DNA of 36,869 bases from an uncultured Opitutaceae bacterium (GTDB lineage Bacteria; Verrucomicrobiota; Verrucomicrobiia; Opitutales; Opitutaceae): contig CALFNN010000034.1 in assembly GCA_937902925.1 (NCBI GenBank), positions 1-36,869 on the forward strand. Direction: 5' to 3'. The notes below the pieces were generated by a model. The model was given only the letters and a program-made list of their open reading frames with translations, was not told where the DNA came from and searched no databases. Both the position numbers and the translations under genes were made by a program. Below are positions 477 to 7,767 of the stretch, one piece after another (within the stretch, counting starts at the first letter, position 1; every line of letters begins with the position of its first letter).

Positions 477-3263
477 ATGGAATTTCCCCGCCGCCACTTC
501 ATCCCGTGGGGCCAGCCACTGCTTCCGCAGGCGGTGGCGTGGCTCGCGCGCGGCTGGGCCGGTGTCGGGCCACTCGACCTCGCCGCCCTGCTCGTGGTCG
601 TGCCGACGCGCCAGTCGGGGCGCCGTTTGCGCGCGGCACTCGCGGCGCACGCGGCTGCTCGCGGTCAGGCGGTGTTTCCGCCGCACGTGCTGACACCCGA
701 GGCGTTGCCCGCCCCGGACTCCGCCGCCGGCGCCGCGTCCAGGCTGGAATCGCTCCTCGCGTGGAACGAAGTTTTTCGTGAGATCGAGCCCGGGGAGTTT
801 CGCGAGGTGTTTCCCGTCGATCCGCCCGTGCGCAATTTCGACTGGGCCGCCCGGCTCGCGCGGGAATTCGAGCGCCTCCAGAATTCGCTCGCCGAGGCCG
901 GGCTGCGGCTGGGCGACGTGGTGGCGAGGGCCGGGGCGGACTTTCCCGAGGCGGAGCGCTGGCGGCGGATCGCCGGGCTCGAACGGTTGCACGCCGAAAA
1001 ACTCGCCGCCGGAGGGCGGCGCGATGCGCATGAGGTGGCGATCGATGACACCCGGGCGCCGGCATGGCCGGAGGGAGTGACGCGCGTCGTTGTTTTGGCA
1101 ACACCCGATCCGCGGCCGCTCGCCCTGCGTGCGCTGGCGACGCTGAAGGATACGATGCCGGTGGATGTAGTCGTGTTCGCGCCGGAGACGGAGGCGGCGG
1201 CCTTCGACGCGTGGGGCCGGCCATTGACGGAGGCGTGGACGCACCGCGAGCTGGCGTTGGGGGAATTTGAACAGCGCGTGCACCTTTGCGCCGATCCCGG
1301 CGCGCAGGCGGAACGCGTGATCGCGGTCGTGCGGGCTTATGGCGCCGCCGATGGCGCCCTCGGGGTGGGGGTGGCGGATCCCGAGGTCTTGCCGTCGCTC
1401 GAATCCGGGCTCCGGCGTGCCGGTCTCGCGAGCTTCAATCCCGAGGGCCGGTCACGGCGGGGCGACGGGCTGCATCAGTTGCTCGCGGCCCTCGCCGCGC
1501 TTGCGCGGGAAGATTCGTTTGCGACGGTCGCGGCGCTCGCCCGTTGTCCGGATTTCCTGGAATTCGTGCGGGCGAGGAACGCCGCCGATTTTTCGGCGGC
1601 GGGTTTCCTCGCCGGGCTCGACCGGTTGCAGGCCGGGCGTCTCCCGGCGGATTTGGCGGAAGCGCGGCGGCAGGCCCCGGACAACGCGGGACTGGCCGCG
1701 GTCGCCGGGCTGCGCGCGACGCTGACCGCCGGCGCCTTTCCCGCCAATGCCGCGGCGGCGCTCGGCGCGATTTTCGCCGCGCGGCGGTTCGACCTGGGCC
1801 GCGCCACGGAGGCGCTCGAAGCCGCCGCCATCGAGACATGGATGGAGGCGGTGCGTGAAGTGCAGGCGGCCGCGCGAAGTTTCGGGGGCGTGACCGATGC
1901 GGAGTGGTGGGACGTGGCGCTGGGCGTTTACGGCGAGAGCACGCGCACCGAGGAGAAGGCCGCTGGCGCGGTCGAACTGCCGGGCTGGCTCGAACTGCTG
2001 TGGGACGACAGCCCGCATCTCGTGATCGCGGGCATGAACGACGGGAGCGTGCCCGAGGCGATTGTCGGGGATCCGTTTCTCCCCGAGGGTTTGCGCGAGC
2101 GGCTCGGCTTGAAGACGAATGCGGCCCGCCTGGCCCGCGATGCTTATTTACTACAGGCGCTCGCGGCGTGTCGCGCGGAGGGCGGGCGGCTCGACCTGCT
2201 GCTCGGCAAAATGTCGACGGCGGGCGATCCGCTGCGCCCTTCGCGGCTGCTCCTCGGCTGTGCCGACGCGGACCTGCCGCGCCGGATCGAATTTTTGTTC
2301 GGGACGGTCGCGCCCGAGCGGGCGACCCCGCCGTGGCGGCGGACCTGGCAGTTGACGCCGCCACGTGTCGCGGCACCGGCGCGGGTGGCGGTGACGGCGC
2401 TGCGCGCGTGGCTCGATTGTCCGTTTCGGTTTTATTTGTCGCGCGTGCTGCGGATGGAGGCGGTCGACCCGGCGAAGACCGAGCTCGACGCCCTGGATTT
2501 CGGCATCCTCTGCCATGCGGCGCTCGAGGCGATGGGCAAGGAGATGGCGCTGCGCGATTGCACCGACGCGAGGCAGCTCCGCGAGTTTCTGCTCGGCGCG
2601 CTCGAGCGGGAGGCGGCGCGCCGGTATGGCGCGGAGGTTCCGCTGCCGCTCCTCGTGCAATTCGAATCGGCGCGGCAGCGGTTGTCGCGCGCCGCCGACG
2701 TGCAGGCGCAGACGCGGGCGGAAGGCTGGGTGATCGAGGGCGTGGAGCGAAAGTTCGAGATCGAAATCGGCGGCCTCGTCGTGAGCGGCAAGATCGACCG
2801 GATCGACCGCCACGAGCGGACCGGCGCGATTCGCGTGCTCGACTACAAGACCTCCGACCAGCCCGTGCAGCCGCGCGACGCGCATCTGCGCGCCGCGCGC
2901 CGCGGCGAGACGGCCCCGGATTTCGCGCGTTTTGCCGGCGGCGAAACGGAACGGGTGTGGCGCGACCTGCAATTGCCAGTCTATCTGCGGGCGTTCGCGA
3001 CGGAATATCCGGGCGAGCGCGAGTGCAGTTACTTCAATCTGCCGAAGGCGGCGACGGAAACCGGGATCGCGCGATGGGATGGCTACACGCGCGAACTGGC
3101 CGACTCGGCGTGGCGGTGCGCCGAGGGCGTGGCGGCGGCGATCCGCCGCGGTGAGTTCTGGCCGCCGAACGAAAACGTCCGGCCCGAACAGGACGATTTC
3201 GCCGCGCTGTTTCACCACGGCGCGGCCGAAAGCGTGGCCTGGAAAAAGGAGGGCGCGCCGTGA
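477..3263 (+). CDS. addB: AddB-like PD-(D/E)XK nuclease subunit
   Basis: The 928-residue product is the likely partner of the AddA-like helicase-nuclease downstream, for double-strand-break end resection in recombinational repair. The N-terminal region is an inactive helicase-like fold: VVVPTRQSGRR near residue 40 sits where a Walker A would be but lacks GxGKT. The C-terminal RecB-family nuclease shows LDCPFRFYL (~646), GKIDRID (~771), VLDYKT (~788) and QLPVYLRAFA (~831). The last three cysteines of the usual AddB iron-sulfur cluster are not seen; the segment reads FWPPNENVRPEQDD. The ATG at 477 has CGGAG upstream and starts MEFPRRHFIPWG; an earlier in-frame start would overlap the rpsT terminator. 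The stop overlaps the next start (GTGA). The family assignment is firm; the exact AddB name is inferred from pairing with AddA. Confidence 0.85.
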   Translation: MEFPRRHFIPWGQPLLPQAVAWLARGWAGVGPLDLAALLVVVPTRQSGRRLRAALAAHAAARGQAVFPPHVLTPEALPAPDSAAGAASRLESLLAWNEVFREIEPGEFREVFPVDPPVRNFDWAARLAREFERLQNSLAEAGLRLGDVVARAGADFPEAERWRRIAGLERLHAEKLAAGGRRDAHEVAIDDTRAPAWPEGVTRVVVLATPDPRPLALRALATLKDTMPVDVVVFAPETEAAAFDAWGRPLTEAWTHRELALGEFEQRVHLCADPGAQAERVIAVVRAYGAADGALGVGVADPEVLPSLESGLRRAGLASFNPEGRSRRGDGLHQLLAALAALAREDSFATVAALARCPDFLEFVRARNAADFSAAGFLAGLDRLQAGRLPADLAEARRQAPDNAGLAAVAGLRATLTAGAFPANAAAALGAIFAARRFDLGRATEALEAAAIETWMEAVREVQAAARSFGGVTDAEWWDVALGVYGESTRTEEKAAGAVELPGWLELLWDDSPHLVIAGMNDGSVPEAIVGDPFLPEGLRERLGLKTNAARLARDAYLLQALAACRAEGGRLDLLLGKMSTAGDPLRPSRLLLGCADADLPRRIEFLFGTVAPERATPPWRRTWQLTPPRVAAPARVAVTALRAWLDCPFRFYLSRVLRMEAVDPAKTELDALDFGILCHAALEAMGKEMALRDCTDARQLREFLLGALEREAARRYGAEVPLPLLVQFESARQRLSRAADVQAQTRAEGWVIEGVERKFEIEIGGLVVSGKIDRIDRHERTGAIRVLDYKTSDQPVQPRDAHLRAARRGETAPDFARFAGGETERVWRDLQLPVYLRAFATEYPGERECSYFNLPKAATETGIARWDGYTRELADSAWRCAEGVAAAIRRGEFWPPNENVRPEQDDFAALFHHGAAESVAWKKEGAP
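3246..3253 (+). promoter_or_regulatory. Strong Shine-Dalgarno for addA, inside addB
   Basis: AAGGAGGG lies six bases before the GTG at 3260. It supports the GTG start and a 4-bp overlap with addB, so the two subunits are probably translationally coupled. Confidence 0.75.
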
Positions 3264-6200
3264 GCACGGTCGGTCACGTGATGATCCTGGCGTCGGCGGG
3301 TTCGGGGAAGACCTATGCACTCACGAATCGATTCGTGCGGCTGCTCGCGCTTGGCGCGAAACCGGAACGGATCGTGGCGCTGACGTTCACGCGCAAGGCG
3401 GCAGGGGAGTTCTTCGACGAGATTCTCAACAAGCTCGCGCGCGCCGCCCGCGAACCCGCGCACGCGGCGCAGCTGGCCCGCGACGTGGAAATGCCGGCGC
3501 TCGGGCCGGCTGATTTCCGGAAGATGCTGCGCGTGGTCGCGGACGCGATGCACCGGTTGCGGCTCGGAACGCTCGACGGATTCTTCGCCCGGATCGCGCG
3601 CAATTTTCCGCTCGAACTCGGGCTGGCGGGGCAGTTCGAAATCCTGCAGGAGCACGCGGCGCGGATGGAGCGCGGCCGCGTGCTGCGGCGGATCTTCGAG
3701 CGGGTGGGGGAACTCGGCGGGGCGCAGCGGGAGTTCATCGAGGCGTTCAAGCGCGCGACGTTCGGCGCCGACGAAAAGCGGCTGGGTGCGCGGCTCGATC
3801 GTTTTATCGACGAGCATCAGGAGATTTTTCTCGAGGCGCCGGGGCGCGACCGCTGGGGCAATCCCGCGCGGGTCTGGCCGGAGGGCAGCGGGTGGCTCGA
3901 GGCCGCGGGGCGGCGCGAGTCGGCGGCGGCGGAGCTGCGGGCGGCGCTTGCCAGCGGGGAACTGAACGAGAAACAACGGGCGCGCTGGGACGTTTTTTTC
4001 GCGGAATTGGCGGAGTGGTCGCCGGGCGCGCCGATGGGCGGCGCGCTGGACTATCTGTTCAAGAACGCGCTCAAGGCGTGGCCGGAGTTGACGGAAATCA
4101 TGGTCGAGCGGAAGAAGCATCCGCTGTCCCCGACGGCGGGCGGGGCCCTGCGGCGGCTTTTGCAGGCGATCGTCGGGGCGGAATTCGCGCGGCGGCTGGA
4201 GATCACGCGGGGAATTTACGCCGTGCTCGCCGGCTACGAGGCGGTTTATCATGACGTGGTCCGGCGCGCGGGCAAACTGACCTTCAGTGACGTGCAGCGC
4301 CTGCTGATGCCGGGCGACGGGGGCGCGCCGGCGCTTTCGCAGTCGGCGGCGGACGAGACCCGGCTGGCGATCGACTACCGGCTCGACGCGGAGATCGACC
4401 ACTGGCTGCTCGACGAATTCCAGGACACGAGCTTCGGACAGTGGATGGTGTTGCGGAACCTGATCGACGAGGCGGTGCAGGACCCGACGGGGACGCGGAG
4501 CTTCTTCTACGTCGGCGATGTGAAGCAGTCGGTGTTTGCGTGGCGCGGCGGGGATCCGCGGCTGTTCCGCGAGATTTTCGACCACTACAACGAGTCACGG
4601 CCGGGGGTCATTGCCGAGGAGCACTTGGTGGAATCGTGGCGCTCGGGTCCGCCCGTGATCGCGATGGTGAACGCCGTGTTCGGGGCCGCGCCGGCGATCG
4701 CGGAGTTATTTCCCGGCGAAGCGTCGGCGGAGTGGAATCGTGAGTGGCGGGACCACGAGTCGGCCAAGCCGGAGCTGGGCGGCCAGGCGGCGCTGTTGCA
4801 CGCGGAAGACGAGGAGGCGAGGTTCGCGTTGGCCTTGCGGCTCCTGCACGAGATCGAGCCGCTCGAACGCGGGCTCACGTGCGCGCTGCTGGTGCAGAAG
4901 AACGACACGGCGGCGCGGCTGGCCGATTACCTGCGGCGGGAGGGCGGCGTGCCGGCGGTGGCGGAGTCGGATTTGCACGTCTGCACCGACAACCCGCTCG
5001 GCGCGGCGTTGCTCGCGCTGGTGAAGGCCGCGGCGCATCCGGGCGACACGCTTGCGCAGGAGCATCTCAAGATGACGCCGCTCGGCGCGCTGCTGGGGGC
5101 CGGGTCGCTCGCGGCGCCCGAGGCGCTGACCCGCCACGTGCTCGGGCAGATTCACGCCGACGGCTTCGAGCGGACGATGGATGCGTGGCTGCGAAGGCTG
5201 GAGCCGCATCTGCCGAAGGACGATGCGTTCGGCCGCGAACGCGCGCGGCAATTTGCCGCGGCGGCGGGATTGTTCGACGCGACGGGCAGCCGCGACGTCG
5301 CGGAATTCATCCAGTTCATGGAGCGGCACACGGTGCGCGAAGCCGACGCCGCGGCCGTCGTGCGCGTGATGACGGTGCACAAGGCGAAGGGTCTCGGTTT
5401 CGACCTCGTGATCCTACCGGACCTCGAGGGAACGAAACTCGACTCCCGGCGCGATGGACTCGCCGTGCAACGCGCGGCCGATCGTTCGGTCGAGTGGGTG
5501 CTCGACCTGCCGGGCAGGATTTTTTCCGGGCAGGATCCGGTGCTGGCGGCGCACCTGCGCACGGTGGAGGCCGAAGCGTGTTACGAAAACCTGTCGCTGC
5601 TCTATGTCGCGATGACGCGGGCGAAGCGCGCCATGTATTTGATCGCGGGAGCCCCGGGCAAATCGACGTCGCGCAATTTTCCCAAACTGCTGGCCACGAC
5701 GCTCGGCGAGGAAAGCGTCACGGTGCGGGTCGGAAAACTGGAAATGCCCGGGGCGTTTGTGGCGGGCGACCCCGACTGGCACCGGAGTCTCCCGCCGCCA
5801 CCGCCGGCGGTGGCGCGCCCGGTTGAGCTTGCCCCGCTCGATCCGGCGGCCCTCCGCCGGTCGCTCCGCCTGCCGGCGCGTCGCCCCTCGGACGAAAAGG
5901 CCGGCGTGCTGGAGGCGGCGAAATTACTCGCTTTGGACGGTGACCGCAGCGCGGTGGAGTTCGGCCGCATGGTCCATGCCTTGTTCGCAGAGGTGGAATG
6001 GGCCGGCCGGCCGGACATCGCGCGGTGGGAGGCGACGTGGTTGGCGCGGGCACGCGACCAGCCGGGCTTGGCCCGGGCGGTCGAGGTGGCGCTGGCGGGT
6101 TTGCGCGCGCCAGAACTCGCCGGCGTTTGGACGCGTCCGACGGGCGTGCCGCAAGCCGGGGTGTGGCGTGAGCGGACCTTCGAGGTTGTGCTCGAGGGCG

Positions 6201-6457
6201 CATGGGTGACGGGCGTGCTGGACCGGGTGGTGATCGAGCGTGACGCAGCCGGTCGTGCGATCCGGGCGGCGGTGTTCGATTTCAAAACCGATCGCCTCGA
6301 GAACGACGCCGCGGTGCTGGCACGGTATGCGGGGCAGTTGGAGCCATACCGCCAGGCCGTGGCGAAGCTGGCGGTCCTTCCGGTGCCGGCGGTGACCTGC
6401 GAACTCGTGCTCACCCACTCCCGGCGGAGGTTGTTCGTGCCGGAGCGCGGCCGATAA
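3260..6457 (+). CDS. addA: AddA-like UvrD-family helicase/exonuclease
   Basis: The 1065-residue product is an ATP-driven superfamily 1 helicase with a C-terminal nuclease, working with the AddB-like protein on DNA ends. Visible motifs in order: Walker A ASAGSGKT (11-18), Ia [27 protein letters not shown] (~383), [53 protein letters not shown] (~780). The RecB-type nuclease follows: [16 protein letters not shown] (~984), VFDFKTDR (~1006), QLEPYRQAV (~1027). Length is slightly below typical AddA. The start is GTG, overlapping the addB stop by four bases behind a strong SD. All catalytic helicase and nuclease motifs appear intact, so the pair should be active. The C-terminal nuclease distinguishes it from plain UvrD or PcrA. 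Confidence 0.93.
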
Positions 6458-6507: not shown

Positions 6508-6609
6508 ATGGGCAATCTGAAAAAGAAACGTCGTCTGAAGATGAACAAGCACAAGCGCCGGAAGCGCTTGAAGGCGAACCGCCACAAAAAGCGCACGTGG
6601 CAGAAATAA
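6508..6609 (+). CDS. 33-aa mS38/bS22-type ribosomal protein (AURKAIP1/COX24 domain)
   Basis: A 33-residue protein with 18 Lys/Arg residues, beginning [20 protein letters not shown] and ending RTWQK. The core K-M-N-x-x-K-x-R-K matches the AURKAIP1/COX24 (mS38) domain, whose small bacterial relatives bind the 30S subunit near the decoding region (bS22 in mycobacteria). It would thread into rRNA as a basic helix. It sits 50 bases after addA and 55 bases before a strong terminator, so it ends this transcription unit. No SD is evident in the bases before the ATG. It is short enough to be missed by automatic gene calling. The domain match is from recognition of the motif and was not searched. Confidence 0.85.
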
Positions 6610-6664: not shown

Positions 6665-6691
6665 CCCGCCGCCTGTTGCGGCGGGTTTTTT
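6665..6691 (+). terminator. Rho-independent terminator after the mS38-like gene
   Basis: A perfect 8-bp stem, CCCGCCGC (6665-6672) with GCGGCGGG (6678-6685), has a five-base loop and is followed by six T residues. It ends the addBA/mS38-like unit before the palindrome region. Confidence 0.92.
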
Positions 6692-6708: not shown

Positions 6709-6731
6709 ATTGTCAACTAATAGTTGACAAT
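6709..6731. promoter_or_regulatory. Palindrome 1, candidate operator
   Basis: Perfect inverted repeat with 11-bp arms ATTGTCAACTA and TAGTTGACAAT around a single central A. It is AT-rich in very GC-rich surroundings. Its core is identical to that of a second palindrome centred 54 bp away. The spacing and symmetry resemble tandem operator half-sites for a dimeric repressor such as a MarR-type protein; the regulator is unknown. It lies between convergent genes, where operators are not expected. Confidence 0.6.
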
Positions 6732-6760
6732 CGGCGGCGGGCGGCTCCCGGGTAATGGGG

Positions 6761-6787
6761 TATTTGTCAACTAATAGTTGACAAATA
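6761..6787. promoter_or_regulatory. Palindrome 2, candidate operator
   Basis: Perfect inverted repeat with 13-bp arms TATTTGTCAACTA and TAGTTGACAAATA around one central A. The central 21 bp are identical to palindrome 1. The centres (6720 and 6774) are 54 bp apart, about five helical turns, so two dimers would lie roughly on the same DNA face. TTGACA inside the right arm could serve as a -35 element, but no matching -10 is seen. Confidence 0.6.
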
Positions 6788-6806: not shown

Positions 6807-6845
6807 ATGGGCGAATGCGGGGCCATGGTCAGGGCACGCGCGTGA
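6807..6845 (+). other. 12-codon micro-ORF with strong SD, doubtful
   Basis: GGGAGGA at 6792-6798 is spaced eight bases from an ATG opening a 12-codon frame (MGECGAMVRARA) that ends inside the 3' end of the opposite-strand TraB/GumN gene. It starts 20 bases after palindrome 2. It may be a leader peptide, the remaining start of a lost regulated gene, or chance. Coding is not demonstrated. Confidence 0.2.
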
Positions 6846-7767
6846 CTCTCAGGCCGCGGGCGCGGAGCAGCGCGATGACACTGCGCGGGCCGACCAGGTG
6901 CGCCACGCCGATCGCGACGAACGCACCGCCGGTGCGCAGGTGCGGTGCGAGGCGATCGACCATGATCGCGTTACGCCGATAGAGAAGCGGTTCGGCAAGA
7001 CTGCGCGTAGCCGGTGAACTGGCGAATTCGGTCTCGACGGTGGAAAGGATGCGCGTCTCGTCGCCCGTGGCATAGGCGGCGACGAGCCGCCGGTCCGCCG
7101 GCCGGTCGTGATCGATCTCGTCGAGGGCGTCCGTCAGCGCCGCGATGGCCTGCGCATCGGGGAGTTTTTCAAAAAGCGCCAGCTGTTCGTCGACGGTTTC
7201 GAGTGGAGCGACCGCGAGCCCGTGGCCGACGGCGCGGTCGTGCAGCTGGCCGTCGACGGTGGCCGCGATGTCGGTGTTGGGAGGCGCCGAGAAGAGGAGC
7301 GCGGCGAAACCCGGCGTCAGCCGCTGGAGCAACTCGTCGGGGAGGCCGAAGGCGGCCCCGGTCTTCTGCACGCGGGCCCAGAGCGGGGAAGGCAGGCGGG
7401 TGGAGAGGTCCGGGGTATCCGGCTGAAACATCTTTGCGACGACGGTCAGGGCCAGGTCGGCGGACACCTCCACCTCGGGATGAAAACTCCGGCTGGTGTC
7501 GAGCGCAGAGAGCACGGCAGTGGGCAGGGTGGCGACCTTGGGATCGTCGCTATGGATCGTGCCAAAAAGCCAGCTGGGTGTCGGACCTTCGACCCTCCAA
7601 AGGAATGCGTGCGCGGTGCCGGCATTGTGAACAACTTGGGAGCTACTCGGATCCGGCGCCGCGGCATCGTTGTTGGCGGCGAACGCCGGCCGCGTTCCGA
7701 CCGCGATGCTCAAGAAAAGGTAAATGGCGGCCAGCGCGGGGGTAAGGCCTTGGTTTAATCTTGTCAT
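6829..7767 (-). CDS. Secreted TraB/GumN (Tiki-like) family protein
   Basis: The 312-residue product begins with a signal peptide (MTRLNQG, hydrophobic stretch LAAIYLFLSIAVG, cleavage near AFA-AN). The mature part carries the hallmarks of the TraB/GumN family: LFGTIHSDDP near residue 68 with the first GxxH motif, PEVEVS with acidic residues, and a C-terminal GVAHLVGPRSVIALL with the second GxxH. In eukaryotic Tiki relatives these residues bind metal for proteolysis; the bacterial role is not established. Location is probably periplasmic. It is convergent with the addBA unit and divergent from pilM, with 134 bases between the two starts. No clear SD precedes the ATG. Confidence 0.82.
   Translation of the reverse strand: MTRLNQGLTPALAAIYLFLSIAVGTRPAFAANNDAAAPDPSSSQVVHNAGTAHAFLWRVEGPTPSWLFGTIHSDDPKVATLPTAVLSALDTSRSFHPEVEVSADLALTVVAKMFQPDTPDLSTRLPSPLWARVQKTGAAFGLPDELLQRLTPGFAALLFSAPPNTDIAATVDGQLHDRAVGHGLAVAPLETVDEQLALFEKLPDAQAIAALTDALDEIDHDRPADRRLVAAYATGDETRILSTVETEFASSPATRSLAEPLLYRRNAIMVDRLAPHLRTGGAFVAIGVAHLVGPRSVIALLRARGLRVTRVP

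Follow-up and report, generated by a model that had tools for sequence, protein, structure and literature searches.

To our knowledge, the dispersed palindromes of bacteria are accompanied either by a tyrosine transposase, as in the REPIN-RAYT system, or by no known partner gene, as in the CGTC REPs, whereas the partner of the palindromes described here resembles a plain DNA-binding protein. Autoregulated repressors of the XRE/Cro type (PF01381 HTH_3, PF15943 YdaS) are small HTH proteins with palindromic sites beside their own gene, and the sites of Noc, SlmA and MatP are tens of palindromes of one protein along the chromosome which are not tied to promoters. In PMC3733652 and PMC3116915, REPs are described at 3' ends, within genes and as dimers, GTAG REPs are reported from Opitutus terrae, where they occur also in both uvrA genes, and a transposase is lacking for the CGTC REPs. 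The term 'helix-turn-helix' was not retrieved from PMC3733652, and no title or abstract found in the literature described an HTH gene paired with palindromes, which by itself does not show that such a pairing is absent from print.

The palindrome family reported here is not a member of the REPIN-RAYT system, which it resembles in placement, doublets and a bracketed partner. The likeness to the elements of PMC3116915 and PMC3733652 extends to dispersed short palindromes at 3' ends and in genes, several families per genome and a repeat that brackets its partner gene. The differences are that the partner, a small HTH protein, has no recognised catalytic domain, that no GTAG tag is enriched and a Y1 gene was undetected in three site-rich genomes, and that the core, with its conserved centre, is almost perfectly palindromic. 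With the CGTC REPs, as described in PMC3733652, the family shares a stem of 8–9 bp, a loop of 4–5 nt, dimers, intragenic copies and the lack of a known transposase, but it has no enrichment of the CGTC tag. Like the Rickettsia palindromic elements, it includes in-frame palindromic inserts within protein-coding genes, although its core is just 21 bp long and a partner HTH gene is present. Unlike those of XRE/Cro-type repressors, its sites also occur downstream of the gene and genome-wide, and the Pfam matches of the protein are mostly below cut-off.

The palindrome pair and its dispersed family

The window, which is the whole stretch of 36,869 nucleotides analysed, carries the perfect 21-bp core TTGTCAACTA-A-TAGTTGACAA twice in identical form, at 6710–6730 and 6764–6784. 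Their centres lie 54 bp apart, and perfect symmetry extends over 6709–6731 (23 bp) and 6761–6787 (27 bp), so that the lengths, the shared core and the distance given in a preliminary description of this DNA were all correct on re-reading. The features are as follows.

6665..6691, + strand: terminator-like stem-loop with T-run, left of the palindromes, recognised by eye; context, outside the palindrome family
6709..6731, no strand: first palindrome, 23 bp perfect, with core 6710–6730, read from the sequence
6732..6760, no strand: spacer separating both palindromes; doublets with 43–59 bp spacing recur in relatives
6761..6787, no strand: second palindrome, 27 bp perfect, with core 6764–6784, read from the sequence
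6829..7767, - strand: gene of the TraB/PrgY/GumN family (Pfam PF01963, E 3.2e-51), 3' end towards the palindromes; context

The pair sits in a convergent gap, bounded on the left by a + strand ORF (3260–6457), a 33-codon ORF (6508–6609) and the terminator-like stem, and on the right by the - strand TraB/GumN gene. This agrees with the earlier placement past a terminator and before the 3' end of an opposite gene, and the background of about 70 percent GC noted at that time is near the G+C content of 66.7% in 400 kb of contig C70 of the same assembly. The 33-codon ORF on the + strand encodes a very basic peptide resembling the AURKAIP1/COX24 type and precedes the terminator-like stem. At its gathering cut-offs Rfam did not match any part of the window, and 100 shuffles of the window yielded no match to the core at up to 3 mismatches.

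The preliminary description had proposed a genome-wide search and had regarded a lack of further copies, and of conservation in related species, as arguments against its reading. In the assembly holding the window (G000; 6.0 Mb, 105 contigs), the search revealed 57 sites at up to 3 mismatches to the core, 20 of them perfect, while the reversed control gave 0. Neither lack was found, since further copies are present and conservation in related species holds at the level of the family of sites. The central base was A or T in 52/52 sites examined in G000, and the centre CTA-W-TAG appeared by eye as conserved as the stem. Among genome contigs, the exact pattern was present in 22 stretches, of which 16 were titled Opitutia, Opitutae or Opitutaceae and 1 Verrucomicrobia; the remaining five (3 Thermoplasmata/Thermoplasmatota, 1 Lokiarchaeota, 1 Veillonella) may be chance matches.

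Sites were classified by gene context using gene calls made with a home-made hexamer script (52/57 sites in G000, 28/73 in G009 and 26/37 in G060). The 52 sites of G000 formed 44 loci, 32 of which were intergenic although intergenic DNA makes up 10.8% of the sequence (p 7e-22), and 12 of which lay in called genes. Among the intergenic loci, convergent gaps were over-represented (12/32 vs 14.5% expected, p 0.001), with 15/32 in tandem gaps (p 0.21) and 5/32 in divergent gaps (26.9% expected, p 0.17). The 13/52 sites (12 loci) inside called genes were all (13/13) in the only open frame, encoding CQL(I/L)VD or variants, and by eye they fell mostly in linkers or variable loops of the proteins, which we take to include UvrA, RlmN and an NRPS. 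In the G009 subset of 28 sites, 12 were convergent, 12 tandem, 3 divergent and 1 at a locus end; the 26 sites of G060 were distributed as 11 convergent, 13 tandem, 1 intragenic and 1 at a locus end. The sole G061 site stood in a divergent gap, and the placement was less clear in G020 and G028, with 7/22 and 3/13 sites in divergent gaps, respectively. Many dispersed, mainly extragenic palindromes with a 3' bias were thus found in G000, as in REPs in the wide sense. The neighbour genes were mixed in kind among the ten scanned with Pfam. Sharing of site positions across genera was considered and mostly not observed; the few same-gap sites (L063 with L153/L032, L056 with L127) were at about chance by a rough estimate. 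In one gap common to three relatives, the 22-bp core was identical and the flanks gave no alignment.

The window pair is probably an intergenic doublet of dispersed REP-like 21-bp palindromes that have a small HTH protein as their dedicated reader. As a member of such a dispersed family, the doublet would need no role for the neighbour genes. The genome scan and the gene-context classes led us to reject an operator of a local gene, and the paired operators supposed in the preliminary description, taken as those of a nearby gene, do not fit sites scattered genome-wide, concentrated in convergent gaps and in part inside genes. A remnant of a lost gene, also raised there, fits poorly, since the 33-bp spacer between the cores is too short for the HTH gene and doublets of 43–59 bp recur in several genomes. 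A structural role, which that description also named, may apply.

A small HTH gene bracketed by the palindrome

Comparison of the genes beside the sites revealed a small HTH gene adjoining them in G000, G020 and G028. The copy of the window's genome is the following.

G000:C70:176786-177121, - strand: small HTH gene of G000, bracketed by that genome's own palindrome

A profile search gave 30 copies in 17/57 relatives, all (17/17) in the window's family; genomes other than G057–G062 were covered. Two of these first 30 copies carry an internal stop, and most are bracketed by the palindrome of the local dialect. When 387 genomes of the phylum were scanned, with up to 12 candidates scored per genome, 22 gave a match, of which 18 belong to the family and 4 are outside it and weak (E 2e-8 to 9e-4). 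Of 19 further family copies, which had not been used to find the pattern, 15 had a palindrome on at least one side (one of them weakly), and 12 of these had palindromes on both. Taken over 49 HTH genes, palindromes were present on both sides in 26, on at least one side in 37 and on neither side in 12; the palindromes at G026d, G027b and G191b are odd and perhaps not cognate. At the same loci, the 28,955 positions lying up to 300 bp from the gene contained 79 palindromes vs 2 in 85,355 positions more than 600 bp away. When the palindrome test was applied to 400 kb of C70, 25 palindromes passed, 17 of which were the family itself.

The genome G205 holds eight HTH copies, and the two that were read differ in helix and in palindrome. 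In G218, G230, G415, G022, G340 and G320 (L218-type loci), the HTH gene keeps conserved neighbours across genera, including a 370-aa protein downstream. The same neighbours across genera in this one genome group indicate that the HTH gene is also inherited in place.

The HTH protein, about 100–115 aa long, is probably XRE/Cro-like. HTH_3 was above cut-off in 1/6 proteins, barely (23.2 vs 23 bits), and HTH_3 (PF01381) at E 0.01 matched 5/22, the Pfam matches to HTH_3 and YdaS being mostly below cut-off. The best PDB match was a Cro with a weak E value of 0.22, and PHROGs gave weak matches to transcription regulators in 2/4 proteins. In NCBIfam 0/6 proteins were above cut-off, and PADLOC had no match among 22 members. 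Among viral contigs 62 stretches had the pattern and 0 were confirmed, and no plasmid with the G000 HTH protein was found. The MarR-like regulator suggested beforehand is not borne out, as the weak matches are to HTH_3/YdaS models rather than to MarR. The idea of paired operators for a dimeric repressor survives in one part: the bracketing described above and the covariation described below suggest that the symmetric sites belong to a dimeric DNA-binding protein. One dimer of the HTH protein would bind each palindrome, and sites before the start codon would autoregulate the HTH gene.

A transcription regulator with an ordinary regulon, in which the dispersed sites are operators and the window pair acts on a neighbour gene or an unrecognised transcript, is unlikely. 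Such a regulator could account for the sites upstream of most bracketed HTH genes, whose centres lie about 11–265 bp before the script-chosen start, and for the presence of some sites in divergent gaps (8/52 in G000 and 7/22 in G020). It leaves unexplained why convergent and not divergent gaps are over-represented among the G000 loci, why 12/44 of these are inside genes, why the ten Pfam-scanned neighbours are mixed in kind and why the bracketing of HTH genes extends to their downstream side.

Dialects and covariation of protein and palindrome

Relatives carry dispersed palindromes of other dialects, which are altered symmetrically. Position 4 from the centre was always paired in the 28 sites of G009, with C-G in 11, A-T in 9 and T-A in the other 8; the genome list of G009 includes at least one mixed-dialect copy. 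At one mismatch, TGTCANCYANTRGNTGACA gave a site in 17/37 family genomes vs 1/20 genomes of other families, and a control pattern gave 2 matches in those 20 genomes.

The palindrome type followed a residue of the recognition helix RQxVHy, in which x was Arg in 28/28 copies with C-type palindromes (position 4) and in 0/5 with A-type palindromes (Fisher p 4e-6, with kinship ignored and x picked after the data were seen). T-type sites do not follow x, which was Arg in 3/4 T-type copies. Residue y, first expected to be acidic with C at position 4, was acidic in 23/28 C-type copies and also in 1/5 A-type and 1/4 T-type copies, and x is reported instead. In a tree of 47 HTH copies with 19/44 inner branches open, at least two separate origins of the A type are required, and G205b falls in a supported group with the C-type G009b and G017. 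Three HTH paralogs of G009 have brackets of the A, C and T types, and the same three types are dispersed in that genome.

A prediction for the CACGTA dialect was recorded before the scan, namely presence in G003, G006, G025, G026, G027 and G032 and absence from G000, G009, G017, G020, G023 and G028. Presence held in 6/6 genomes (37, 69, 23, 36, 9 and 4 sites, respectively, the gene's own brackets included), while absence failed in 4/6 (G000 8, G009 1, G017 5, G020 20; G023 0, G028 0). The number of sites per genome, summed over two patterns which may have a few sites in common, had a median of 38 where the HTH gene was present (17 family genomes) vs 0 where it was not (20 family genomes; p 2.4e-6). 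Among these 20 family genomes without a detected HTH gene, six hold 3–17 sites and three hold 1 or 2; there, the sites may outlive the HTH gene or a second reader may exist. Genomes with sites in which the gene was not detected include G002, G004, G016, G018, G021 and G030.

The sister species G218 and G230 were compared at two loci. At both, their neighbour proteins are 90–97% identical with third positions 73–82% identical, whereas identity falls to 69% in the HTH genes and to 38–44% at their third positions. At one locus, both palindromes are altered at positions 5 and 6, and at the other mainly at outer positions. Since the silent sites of the HTH genes have diverged as well, a replaced cassette is a better fit than a rapidly changing protein; from these alignments, the palindrome-HTH-palindrome cassettes look as if they had been swapped. 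Five other pairs showed a weaker contrast of cassette and neighbours, and one (G205b/G174) almost none.

We tentatively suggest a reader-repeat system free of a transposase as mover, in which the HTH gene with its own 21-bp brackets would form a cassette swapped between lineages that sustains its own palindrome population. Protein and palindrome would shift specificity together, with several pairs per cell. The spread of palindromes without a transposase, and the gain to a DNA-binding protein from tens of sites off promoters, would become testable, and about 37 naturally occurring pairs of a protein with its site give a hint of a specificity code for one HTH fold.

Doublets, extended arms and other explanations

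Doublet spacings in several genomes, compiled by hand from several outputs and not exhaustive, gather at 43–48 and 51–59 bp. They were phased near 10.8 bp (R 0.53, reached by 0/5000 jittered sets), a result resting on these two groups; the 16 longer spacings alone showed weak phasing (R about 0.42). In G029, 5/7 loci examined (L213, L214, L215, L217 and L219) have a common doublet spacer amid different surroundings, and inverted asymmetric pairs were found in G028 and G009. Most G000 sites are single and not doublets. One doublet at L034:2265-4019 (sites 3212 and 3266) has the 54 bp spacing of the window and lies in-frame within a called gene.

Extension of the palindrome beyond the core by copy-specific arms was in excess in G000 (73 vs 36 shuffled, 0/2000 shuffles), around HTH genes (189 vs 36, 0/2000) and in G060 (29 vs 15.6, 9/2000). 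G009 showed no excess (17 vs 13.5, 483/2000). Sites and doublets could have spread by copying through some machinery, and copies would persist where they are least harmful, in protein loops and at the 3' ends of genes. Against this reading, an empty site was not observed.

Chromosome-organising sites of one protein, comparable to those of Noc, SlmA or MatP, would be a quite unlikely reading of the palindromes. In G000, C70 carries the only parS match, and 400 kb of this contig had 17 sites vs about 4 expected, and 12/22 C-dialect sites of G020 were within 0.6 Mb of parS; only 2/20 CACGTA-dialect sites of G020 were that near. The HTH genes of G000 and G020 are in the same regions, so that clustering around the gene and around the origin are not separated, and the number and presence of sites differ widely among genera. 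The family further differs from Noc, SlmA and MatP sites in that its dialects change across genera and the two of G020 are distributed unlike each other. An origin-centred distribution, tried as a general description, applied to G000 and one G020 dialect and not to the other. The parS-type site in question, G000:C70:317942-317957 (TGTTCCACGTGGAACA), is the only one in G000, and each of the six genomes searched had one or two matches.

It is very unlikely that the palindromes are classical REP/REPIN elements mobilised by a tyrosine (Y1) transposase, with the HTH gene incidental, even though the 3'-end and intragenic placement, the doublets and the embedding in longer palindromes match the REPs described in PMC3733652 and PMC3116915. 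RAYT-moved REPs were rejected on three grounds. Y1_Tnp (PF01797) at E 0.001 gave 0 matches in the site-rich genomes G000, G017 and G028, where the Y1 (RAYT) gene that goes with GTAG REPs was undetected at this threshold, and one weak match in G009. The number of Y1 genes and the number of sites over 37 genomes were not correlated (rho 0.06). No enrichment of GTAG, CGTC or CCTC tags was found within 9 nt of the stem compared with shuffled flanks: GTAG occurred at 2/52 sites in G000 (5.0 in shuffled flanks), 1/28 in G009 (1.3) and 0/26 in G060 (1.5), CGTC at 2 (1.8), 1 (0.8) and 2 (1.3), and CCTC at 1 (0.8), 0 (0.6) and 1 (1.9), in the same order. A Y1-moved element would also leave the covariation with the helix unexplained.

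RNA hairpins, that is, palindromes acting as terminators or mRNA 3'-end structures, are hardly credible despite the 3'-end placement and the copy-specific extension in G000 and at HTH-flanking sites, because the would-be loop CTA-W-TAG is conserved as much as the stem, most copies have by eye no following T run, some lie inside genes and G009 has no excess of extension.

Two further observations concern G020. A second palindrome type, ATTAGCCTNGGCTAAT, adjoins several TGTCACC palindromes at L171–L173, and at L164:2020-2580 three TGTCACC palindrome copies in steps of about 270 bp with near-identical flanks form a tandem repeat.
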